From Ilumatobacter coccineus YM16-304 (GTDB taxonomy: Bacteria; Actinomycetota; Acidimicrobiia; Acidimicrobiales; Ilumatobacteraceae): 64,000 nucleotides of DNA. Below, one piece after another: positions 8,016 through 49,701 of this stretch. The position numbers and the translations under genes are program-made. The stretch spans positions 2,480,001 through 2,544,000 of the forward strand of contig NC_020520.1 of the NCBI RefSeq assembly GCF_000348785.1, written 5' to 3'. Every line of letters begins with the position of its first letter. Within the stretch, counting starts at the first letter, position 1. The notes beneath the pieces were generated by a model. That model was not told the origin of the DNA. It saw nothing but the letters and a program-made list of their open reading frames with translations, and made no database searches.

Positions 8016-8106
8016 GGCCGAACCGGCTCTCGGCGAAACGCACGTGACGGCTGGCCGCCGATGGGATCCCGGTCTGGGTCATGTCGCGACAGTACCGTCA
8101 CCCCTC

Positions 8107-10726: not shown

Positions 10727-10882
10727 CGGTCGAGCGTGAGGCGGGTCCGGGAGGGGCCGGTCGAGCCTGCGACGATCGACCCTAGCGTCGGGAGGGGATT
10801 GGAACGGTGTTGTGATCGGTCAGGACGCCAAACCCCGGCTCGGGTCACGCCCGGTTCACGGCGTTCGGTCACGGTGGGCCAC

Positions 10883-23405: not shown

Positions 23406-24164
23406 TCAGACGCGGGTTGGGCGGCCGAACCGGGCGTCGACGGGTTGGGCGTAGCGGACGATCGGATCACCGGACGGAGTCGGGAGGCCCGCGGCTTCGA
23501 TCGACGCGTCGGCGTACTCGGTGAGCGTCGCCTCGTGCAGCGTCCACGCCTGGTGATCGACCGGATGATGGCGCAGCACACCGCGCGCGGCAGGCCACTT
23601 CGTGACCGTGCCCCAGCGAGCGGTGAGGAACACGTCGAGCCCGGACGGCTCGGTGATCACGTCGCCGATCTCGACGGCCACGGTGGTCGACGAGGCCGGA
23701 CGCTTCGGCCAGCGTCGTCGTGCCGTGACGTAGCGACGCCACGAGGCGCGGCGTTCGATCGTGAGGCGACCCCACACGTAGGGGAAGCCGAGAAACCATC
23801 GAGCGAACGCGACGATCGCCAATCGGTCGGCTTCGAGCGAGAAGAACCAGATCGCCCGGTTGCCGGCCGAGTCGACGACGTAGGTGCGCACGTTCGTCTC
23901 GTTGAACGCCGAGATCCACGGCACGGCAGGCACGAAATGAGGCGTCGCATCGGTCATGCGGAACGGCACGAGCGACACGTAGGCCCATCCGGCGTGGGTG
24001 TCGACGCGCAGGCCGTCGGGGAGCAGCGCCTGCACGATGTCGGGCCGGTACCGCCAGTGGACGAAGGTGAGCTCGTCCCACCGGTTACGCAACCAACGTC
24101 GCGAGACCGGGCCGGGGGAATCAGCGGTCAACGGTTGCGGTGGCACGTCGCCCGATGAGCTCAT
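23406..24164 (-). CDS. DUF2071 (YqjF-type) protein
   Basis: A 252-aa DUF2071 protein, recognisable by RWDELTFVHWRYRPDIVQALLPDGLRVDTHAGWAYVSLVPFRM near the N-terminus and by the NVRTYV..GIWFFSLEA-like middle. The family adopts an acetoacetate decarboxylase-related fold, but no function is known. The ATG at 24164 is chosen over GTG 24170 because TACCGT ends exactly 8 nt upstream. Its promoter overlaps that of the divergent DUF971 gene. Convergent with the AtuA-like gene. Confidence 0.8.
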   Translation of the reverse strand: MSSSGDVPPQPLTADSPGPVSRRWLRNRWDELTFVHWRYRPDIVQALLPDGLRVDTHAGWAYVSLVPFRMTDATPHFVPAVPWISAFNETNVRTYVVDSAGNRAIWFFSLEADRLAIVAFARWFLGFPYVWGRLTIERRASWRRYVTARRRWPKRPASSTTVAVEIGDVITEPSGLDVFLTARWGTVTKWPAARGVLRHHPVDHQAWTLHEATLTEYADASIEAAGLPTPSGDPIVRYAQPVDARFGRPTRV

Positions 24165-24172
24165 CGCCACGA

Positions 24173-24182
24173 ACGGTACCCT
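24173..24182. promoter_or_regulatory. Bidirectional overlapping -10 core ACGGTACCCT
   Basis: Read rightward it gives TACCCT (24177-24182), 8 nt before the DUF971 ATG at 24191. Read leftward it gives TACCGT (24178-24173), 8 nt before the DUF2071 ATG at 24164. The two -10 boxes share the central TA, so only one polymerase could open the site at a time. The same ten bases with the same spacing occur at 49360-49369. Confidence 0.7.
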
Positions 24183-24190
24183 TCGCGGCC

Positions 24191-42832: not shown

Positions 42833-42905
42833 GTCACGGACCGTATCGTCCCGAGCTGATATCGATACCGGTCGGGTGCGGTCACCGTCGATACGCTGCG
42901 ATGTC

Positions 42906-48697: not shown

Positions 48698-48740
48698 CCG
48701 ACCTGGTTATTTCCATCCCGGATGGAAATAACCAGGTCGG
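48698..48740. repeat. 43-bp perfect palindrome, copy A
   Basis: Arms of 21 bp around a single C; the left arm starts CCGACCTGGTTATTTCCATC. It lies at the convergent end of the aldo/keto reductase and alpha/beta hydrolase genes and encodes the last ten residues of the hydrolase. A sister element of the same length is at 57015-57057. In RNA each strand would fold into an uninterrupted hairpin, so a bidirectional terminator is one possible role. Confidence 0.85.
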
Positions 48741-49351
48741 GTGATCCAGGTGGCGACGCGTTCGGCGACGAGCGCGGCGCGACCGGCGACGAAGTGATCG
48801 ACCGACTCGATCGTCTCGAACGTGGCATCCGCCCACGTCGAGACGATCGGCTCGGCGACCGACGGCGGCGCGAACTGGTCGTGCGCCGGCGTCAGCACCA
48901 GCGTCGGCATGTCGCGTCCCGGCGCGAGATCCATGACCCCGAGCGGGGGAGCGACCAGCGCCTTACCGCTGAGCCGTTCGTCGCCGAGCGCCAGCGTGAC
49001 CATCGCTCCGAACGAGTAGCCCACGGCGAACAGCGGCACACCGCTGCCCGCACCGGCAACGGTGTCGAGCGCGGCCACCGCATCGAGTTGTTCGGCCACA
49101 CCGCCCCCGAACTCCGAACGGAAGTCGAAGCGCAGCGACGTCACCCCGGCACGCGGCAACGCGTCGAACAGCGCCTCGACCACGTTGTTGTGTCTGTTGC
49201 CGCCGTACTGCGGATGTGGGTGGCACACGATGGCGCCGGCGATCGCTCCGTCGACCGATGCGAGATCGCCCTCGATCACCACGCCGTCGGACGTCGTGAA
49301 CGACACCGTCTCGATCGTCGGAACCACGTCGCGCTCGTCGTCAGTGCTCAT
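48707..49351 (-). CDS. Alpha/beta hydrolase (Tex30/KANL3-like)
   Basis: A 214-aa compact hydrolase. CHPHPQYGGNRHNNVVEAL is the family's oxyanion region, FAVGYSFGAMV the nucleophile elbow (Ser), and PAHDQFAPP / VDHFVAGR carry the Asp and His. No lid domain is present. The ATG at 49351 follows TACCGT by 8 nt in a promoter core shared with the divergent GroES-like gene. Its final residues TRPGYFHPGWK are specified by a 43-bp palindrome, so the element has been absorbed into the reading frame. Confidence 0.85.
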   Translation of the reverse strand: MSTDDERDVVPTIETVSFTTSDGVVIEGDLASVDGAIAGAIVCHPHPQYGGNRHNNVVEALFDALPRAGVTSLRFDFRSEFGGGVAEQLDAVAALDTVAGAGSGVPLFAVGYSFGAMVTLALGDERLSGKALVAPPLGVMDLAPGRDMPTLVLTPAHDQFAPPSVAEPIVSTWADATFETIESVDHFVAGRAALVAERVATWITRPGYFHPGWK

Positions 49352-49359
49352 GTGATCTG

Positions 49360-49369
49360 ACGGTACCCT
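49360..49369. promoter_or_regulatory. Bidirectional overlapping -10 core ACGGTACCCT
   Basis: The same ten bases as at 24173-24182. TACCCT (49364-49369) is 8 nt before the GroES-like GTG at 49378; TACCGT (49365-49360) is 8 nt before the hydrolase ATG at 49351. The two start codons are again 26 bp apart. Confidence 0.7.
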
Positions 49370-49377
49370 GCCCGACC

Positions 49378-49701
49378 GTGGCGATGGACGACGACAAACT
49401 CCCCATCAAGATGCTCAACGACCGTGTCCTCGTCGAGGCCGACGACGACGCCGAGCGCAAGTCGTCGGGCGGCATCTTGATCCCGGCGACCGCACAGATG
49501 GCGAAGCGGCTCGTGTGGGCCACCGTCGTCGCACAGGGGCAGAACGTCCGGGCGTGCGAGATCGGCGACAAGGTGCTGTTCAGCCCCGACGACCGCTACG
49601 AGGTCGAAGTGCAGGGCAACGACTACATCATGCTGCGCGAGCGAGAACTGCACGCCGTTGCCTCCGAGCGCAACGAGTCGTCCACCGGCCTCTACCTCTG
49701 A
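49378..49701 (+). CDS. GroES-like co-chaperonin paralogue
   Basis: A 107-aa GroES-fold protein: MLNDRVLVEADDDAERKSSGGILIPATAQ and ATVVAQGQNVRACEIGDKVLFSPDD match the chaperonin-10 domain, but the mobile-loop segment that contacts GroEL is atypical and there is an extra C-terminal tail. No groEL adjoins, so it is probably an additional orphan copy. The GTG at 49378 follows TACCCT by 8 nt; an ATG two codons later is possible. Confidence 0.85.
   Translation: MAMDDDKLPIKMLNDRVLVEADDDAERKSSGGILIPATAQMAKRLVWATVVAQGQNVRACEIGDKVLFSPDDRYEVEVQGNDYIMLRERELHAVASERNESSTGLYL

Follow-up and report, generated by a model that had tools for sequence, protein, structure and literature searches.

The window, by which we mean the whole 64-kb stretch of DNA analyzed here (positions 2480001-2544000 of a single-contig 4.83-Mb genome), contains two copies of the decamer ACGGTACCCT, each lying between a pair of divergent genes:

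23406..24164, minus strand: locus 1 left gene, DUF2071 protein of 252 aa (PF09844, domain match)
24173..24182, no strand assigned: locus 1 predicted TA-sharing double -10 core ACGGTACCCT (sequence, motif counts in window and genome)
24173..24178, minus strand: locus 1 predicted left -10 box TACCGT, 8 nt before ATG 24164
24177..24182, plus strand: locus 1 predicted right -10 box TACCCT, 8 nt before ATG 24191; kept as CCGATACCCT in the same-genus locus L173
24191..24550, plus strand: locus 1 right gene, GBBH-like N-terminal domain protein of 119 aa (PF06155, domain match)
48707..49351, minus strand: locus 2 left gene, alpha/beta hydrolase-like protein of 214 aa (solved relatives 3trd_A and 2i3d_A)
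49360..49369, no strand assigned: locus 2 predicted TA-sharing double -10 core ACGGTACCCT, conserved in the order
49360..49365, minus strand: locus 2 predicted left -10 box TACCGT, 8 nt before ATG 49351
49364..49369, plus strand: locus 2 predicted right -10 box TACCCT, 8 nt before GTG 49378
49378..49701, plus strand: locus 2 right gene, GroES-like co-chaperonin of 107 aa (PF00166, domain match)

Read directly from the sequence, the divergent start codons are 26 bp apart at both locus 1 (ATG 24164 on the minus strand, ATG 24191 on the plus strand) and locus 2 (ATG 49351 on the minus strand, GTG 49378 on the plus strand). TACCGT and TACCCT lie on opposite strands and share a TA at each locus, so the two hexamers overlap. 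The sequence bears out the first-pass annotation on the identical decamers, the 26-bp gaps, and the 8 nt to all four starts. Our codon-usage caller placed the DUF2071 start at 24092 rather than 24164, and the GroES-like start at 49384 rather than 49378. ATG 24164 is backed by alignment of DUF2071 residues 1-252 to the same-genus relative in L173, and the alternative GTG at 24170 is only 2 nt from the locus 1 left box. The hydrolase-like protein had no Pfam match at 0.001, with 3trd_A and 2i3d_A as its best solved relatives. No regulator domain was found in any of the four flanking proteins. The closest relatives of the groES-like gene in the named collection were from Ilumatobacter and Ilumatobacteraceae.

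We called genes with our own codon-usage script in the window and 40 evenly spaced 20-kb stretches (768 genes, 864 kb). Of 1793 candidate starts, 71, 55, and 29 had TANNNT at 6, 7, and 8 nt upstream, compared with 38, 26, and 20 of 26645 non-start control codons. The leaderless -10 signal of this genome is TANNNT 6–9 nt ahead of the start, as described for Actinobacteria (PMC3160421, PMC3898074), and 182 of the 768 called genes had it. The 8-nt spacing on both sides of both loci is within the enriched range and longer than the modal 6–7 nt, so leaders of 1–2 nt are possible. Promoters made up 182 of the 576 TANNNT boxes overall, 29/65 of those preceded by GG, and 38/87 of those preceded by CGN; boxes preceded by AC matched the last two classes at 13/27, and the corresponding fractions for GGTACCNT and CGGTACCNT were 8/17 and 4/12.

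TANNNT was 5.0-fold depleted in coding DNA (163 sites vs 817.5 expected, phase-matched, both strands of the 864-kb sample), and the window contained 46 vs 169 in dinucleotide shuffles. Depletion was smaller in relatives, with 20 vs 69 in Pseudonocardiales loci, 25 vs 96 in named Acidimicrobiia loci, and 26 vs 61 expected in loci of other families of the order. We set aside a synonymous-shuffle estimate of TANNNT avoidance in favor of the phase-matched one, judging it inflated because that shuffle did not keep the codon phases of TA. Whole-locus ratios, which lump promoters together with coding DNA, were not used. Selection acting against spurious -10 motifs has been described, with under-representation in the coding DNA of 24 of 42 genomes according to the available part of that study (PMC1939733). 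Given that TANNNT is purged from coding DNA, a TANNNT that remains in this genome is often a promoter.

The motif ACGGTACCNT occurred twice in the window, compared with a dinucleotide-shuffle mean of 0.10 (2/100 shuffles reached 2), and at four places in the whole genome (6 hits with palindromes counted on both strands, vs 8 for the reversed control). It is not over-represented genome-wide as a motif per se. What is unusual is its position: all four places fall in gaps between divergent genes, and such gaps make up 22,405 of 864,000 sampled bases (2.6%). The first-pass annotation had proposed a genome scan for the motif with start codons 8 nt away on both sides. The placement between divergent genes held throughout, but the exact 8/8 spacing was found at only two of the four sites, with 6–8 nt on both sides at three. 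The two sites outside the window, L003 and L004, are perfect palindromes (ACGGTACCGT). L003 has a pyruvate kinase start 6 nt to the left and a metallo-beta-lactamase superfamily start 13 or 16 nt to the right; at L004 the starts to either side, of a TetR-type gene and a DUF3995 gene, are both 7 nt away, and the right ORF has a weak coding score. Positions 1485-1520 of L004 form a near-perfect inverted repeat around ACGGTACCGT between these two genes, possibly an operator overlying a predicted two-way leaderless promoter.

Pairs of TANNNT boxes sharing a TA numbered 28 in the 864-kb sample, vs 12.9 expected given TA; 23 were intergenic and 5 were inside called genes. The sample contained 119 divergent gene pairs, and TA-sharing boxes with called starts 4–12 nt away on both sides occurred three times, at the two loci of the window and at L105. 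This geometry was counted in the sampled stretches only (864 kb). We claim no genome-wide over-representation of the 26-bp geometry, and the strong evidence is conservation. Three more intergenic TA-sharing pairs lie in the window, at 8089-8098, 10779-10788, and 42840-42849; the first and third have a called-gene start 7–8 nt away on one side and the second on neither. The motif GGTACCNT had fewer genomic hits than its reversed control (75 vs 187) and was intergenic at 18 of 30 examined sites; 20 stretches chosen near GGTACCNT sites were excluded from every count. As a raw count, ACGGTACCCT was present in 77 of 148 class genomes.

We compared locus 2 with loci from the named collection and from class, family, and order genomes (L005-L026 and L202-L286), using the best 30 loci from 112, the best 30 from 78, and the best 30 from 46 matching genomes. 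The last set favors hydrolase-bearing loci because the hydrolase was its seed. The 107 loci represented 89 distinct contexts (identical ones merged, near-copies kept), of which 79 were usable, meaning that TANNNT lay 5–10 nt before an in-frame groES start; the TA and final T of the right box are invariant by this search rule. Ten distinct loci were set aside, five without groES in the locus, two at contig edges, and three without a -10. Exceptions included L008, where the core and left start were present and an in-frame groES start at leaderless distance was absent, and L218 and L285, which had no TANNNT 5–10 nt before an in-frame groES start.

Among the matches listed, a hydrolase start lay 5–9 nt from the left box in 42 of the 79 usable loci. 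The left box was TACCGT in all 42 of these, and a left TANNNT was present in 5 of the remaining 37 (Fisher 3e-17, uncorrected for relatedness). All 42 read ACGGTA followed by CCCT (19), CCGT (18), GCGT (4), or CCTT (1), and the top base in the columns flanking the core reached at most 26/42. The most telling base was the left-box -7T (A on the plus strand), found in 42/42 loci with the hydrolase start and 5/37 without among the matches listed; the same A occurred in 16 of the 182 leaderless promoters of our own-genome sample (11/94 with a divergent neighbor, 5/84 with a co-directional neighbor).

The association extended to other genes. The five left-box loci outside the 42 were L279, with a hydrolase start at 11 nt, L018, L208, and L252, with another ORF, and L209, with none. 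When any divergent ORF of at least 150 aa was considered, a start lay 5–11 nt away in 45/47 left-box loci, while 31/32 loci without the left box lacked such an ORF, again among the matches listed. The misfits were L012, L209, which retained the left box with no nearby divergent start, and L256, where the contig ends 195 bases from the beginning of the groES match and so cuts the left ORF. At L208, L252, and L018 a different divergent ORF (190, 187, and 397 aa, respectively) starts 5–8 nt from the retained left box, as if the left half of the promoter had been taken over by another gene.

Within the order, the 42 carriers among the matches listed came from 13 families. In a tree of groES proteins, left box plus nearby hydrolase start, taken as one label, required 19 changes (bootstraps 17–20), at least 8 of them forced on well-supported branches, compared with an average of 26.7 for shuffled labels; the tree itself was weak, built on 110 columns, with 28 open forks and a bootstrap that had not settled. 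The association was therefore not a single event and has been gained or lost repeatedly, and the clustering of the label means that the loci are not independent. In Pseudonocardia and allies (L027-L050), a TANNNT, mostly TAGCAT, lay 6–7 nt before the groES-like start in 24/24 loci, which suggests that this gene has been expressed leaderless for a very long time; a divergent hydrolase within 400 nt of the groES-like gene was found in none of the 24. Such a pattern agrees with the right promoter predating the two-way element, itself probably in place early in the history of the order.

Locus 1 had a different history. In the 26 loci analyzed (L172-L197) of 30 listed, DUF2071 was divergent beside the GBBH-like gene in only two, the window copy (L172) and same-genus L173. 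In L173 the right box is preserved at 8 nt and the left box is missing, with 48 nt between the DUF2071 start and the right start. Locus 1 looks younger than locus 2, and the decamer they have in common is best read as convergence on a favored palindromic double box. Duplication of one element was rejected, since the 8-nt flanks of ACGGTACCCT and the genes differ and the relatives show separate histories, in agreement with the earlier view that the pair was not a simple duplicate. The idea of a special twin element was not supported, as locus 2 is conserved in the order while locus 1 is not in the comparable L173, and other TA-sharing pairs exist. The locus 1 side of our claim is weaker than that of locus 2.

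Could the palindromic GGTACC core instead be a transcription factor operator, with the promoters elsewhere? The perfect palindromes at L003 and L004 would suit this explanation, as would the TetR-type gene adjoining L004 and the reach of its inverted repeat beyond the core. However, the right box varies within TANNNT (TACCCT, TACCGT, TAGCGT, and TACCTT; elsewhere TAACCT and TAGCCT, and in Pseudonocardiales TAGCAT or TAAACT) while staying 5–10 nt from the start (the range searched), the left half decays once the start of the left gene is gone, and the 182 sample genes with TANNNT at such a distance mostly have other sequences. We considered an operator improbable and rejected it as the main reading, though it may additionally apply at L004.

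It is still less probable that only the right promoter works and that the left box is an accident of an extended -10 (CGG) of the right promoter. CG at core positions 2–3 was common in loci without a hydrolase start (29/37 and 32/37 among the matches listed), and some of the core may thus be needed by the right promoter only, and in M. tuberculosis CGN commonly precedes TANNNT promoters, the extended -10 going with higher promoter activity in the accessible text of that study (PMC3898074). But the A at position 1 lies outside CGN, and it is this base that tracks the hydrolase start, an argument from co-variation.

We gave equally little credence to a mutually exclusive toggle, in which the polymerase orientations compete and cells choose one gene. 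At bidirectional promoters, steric constraints are stated to bar binding on both sides at once, and one side, when activated, can repress the other, but five tested E. coli promoters did not compete at basal activity, as far as the available text of the paper goes (PMC12825309). The first-pass annotation's toggle-like control requires mutually repressing regulators, and the four genes encode DUF2071, GBBH-like N-domain, alpha/beta hydrolase, and GroES proteins; its expectation of competition is likewise at odds with the E. coli result. With no regulator found in either pair, the loci would be expected to give steady and roughly independent output. Least credible of all is chance overlap of two TANNNT boxes in a short gap, for which overlap on TA is easiest because TA is self-complementary, TA-sharing pairs are partly expected (12.9 of 28), and ACGGTACCNT is not commoner than its reversed control, but which is disfavored by the confinement of all four genomic sites to divergent gaps and, at locus 2 already, by the 42/42 left boxes.

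We conclude that each decamer is very probably a minimal bidirectional promoter that fits into a 26-bp gap and is predicted to yield two leaderless mRNAs. The sequences themselves establish the geometry, the statistics of spacing, the conservation, and the disappearance of the left box together with the left gene; conservation of both halves and this co-loss bear only indirectly on RNA synthesis in both directions. A recognizable -35 is absent, in line with the lack of a consensus at actinobacterial leaderless promoters. The best TTGACA match at the two loci was only 2–3 of 6, and across the 42 locus 2 relatives mean matches were 2.69 on the right (shuffled 2.62 ± 0.12) and 2.81 on the left (shuffled 2.60 ± 0.11). 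The leaderless set of the sample had a slight TTGACA excess (2.76 vs 2.61 ± 0.06), with 6/182 promoters having at least five matches vs 2.3 when shuffled. The spacing, missing -35, and conservation with co-loss agree with the earlier proposal of oppositely directed leaderless -10 elements that overlap on the TA.

From this arrangement we infer how the element could work. Two TANNNT -10 hexamers on opposite strands would share one TA step (ANNNTANNNT), and each RNA would begin at the start codon or 1–2 nt ahead of it, giving a predicted start-site separation between 23 bp (7 bp from each box) and 27 bp (exactly leaderless). Because a clear -35 is absent on either side, RNA polymerase would be positioned mainly by the -10 region, and it would bind in one orientation or the other, never both simultaneously. 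Since both strands read TACC, the CC of either box appears as GG directly upstream of its counterpart, so each box may double as the extended -10 (CGN or GGN) of the other; the rates for GG- and CGN-preceded promoters lend this mild support. Each bubble would open outward from the shared TA, one to either side, and the polymerase footprint would make the complexes alternatives. The geometry would thus imply two complexes instead of the single open complex first suggested. Under ordinary rates, use of one orientation should hardly affect the other, and interference would be expected only with strong activity on one side.

A more ambitious version is possible, though we lean against it: from early in the order onward, the TA step may have been a dual promoter that chooses orientation, each box extending its opposite and the pair evolving as one palindromic unit, with a trade-off that holds GroES-like protein and hydrolase at a fixed, low-noise ratio.

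One proposal, in the available part of that work, is that bidirectional promoters arise early in the evolution of promoters and are then removed or altered by degrees (PMC10268837). At locus 2, the second half of a predicted two-way promoter persists with the second gene over many families and is repeatedly absent without it. This co-varying half offers a natural test of gradual removal and of orientation competition as a means of control. The decamer is also a compact predicted dual promoter amenable to in vitro testing, and it probably allows transcription either way into two back-to-back genes with almost no spacer.

Bacterial bidirectional promoters with shared or overlapping -10 elements were reportedly described by Warman et al. 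in 2021. The kind of element is known, and its leaderless, conserved, co-varying form is a variant for which we found no report in the literature searched, which was covered in part. In known examples the commonest distance between start sites is 18 bp, with 10 and 23 bp common as well (Warman et al. 2026, PMC12825309), and start sites 7–25 bp apart have served as a criterion (Middlemiss et al. 2023, PMC10268837), both as given in the accessible text. The likeness to our loci is a pseudo-symmetric -10 region serving both strands. By our own arithmetic, TA-sharing geometry with 7 bp per side gives 23 bp, a common spacing, while the 27 bp predicted for exactly leaderless RNAs is just outside the 7–25 bp range. 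The differences here are the predicted leaderless mRNAs, the absence of a clear -35, and co-variation with the left gene over 13 families; the word leaderless does not occur in the available text of Warman et al. 2026 (PMC12825309). Toggle switches resemble our loci in that mutually exclusive use of overlapping promoters is possible, and differ in that no repressor pair was found here and no feedback is known. Earlier work on leaderless genes of Actinobacteria places TANNNT ~12 bp ahead of the start codon and counts over 20% of genes as leaderless (Zheng et al. 2011, PMC3160421; Cortes et al. 2013, PMC3898074), and in M. tuberculosis no -35 is conserved and "closely juxtaposed divergent promoters" are called common (PMC3898074), again in the portions of these papers available. 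Our loci are alike in having TANNNT at a fixed distance, enriched over control codons and at 8 nt in both, and are distinct in that a single TA step is common to two such boxes, both halves having evidence of conservation.
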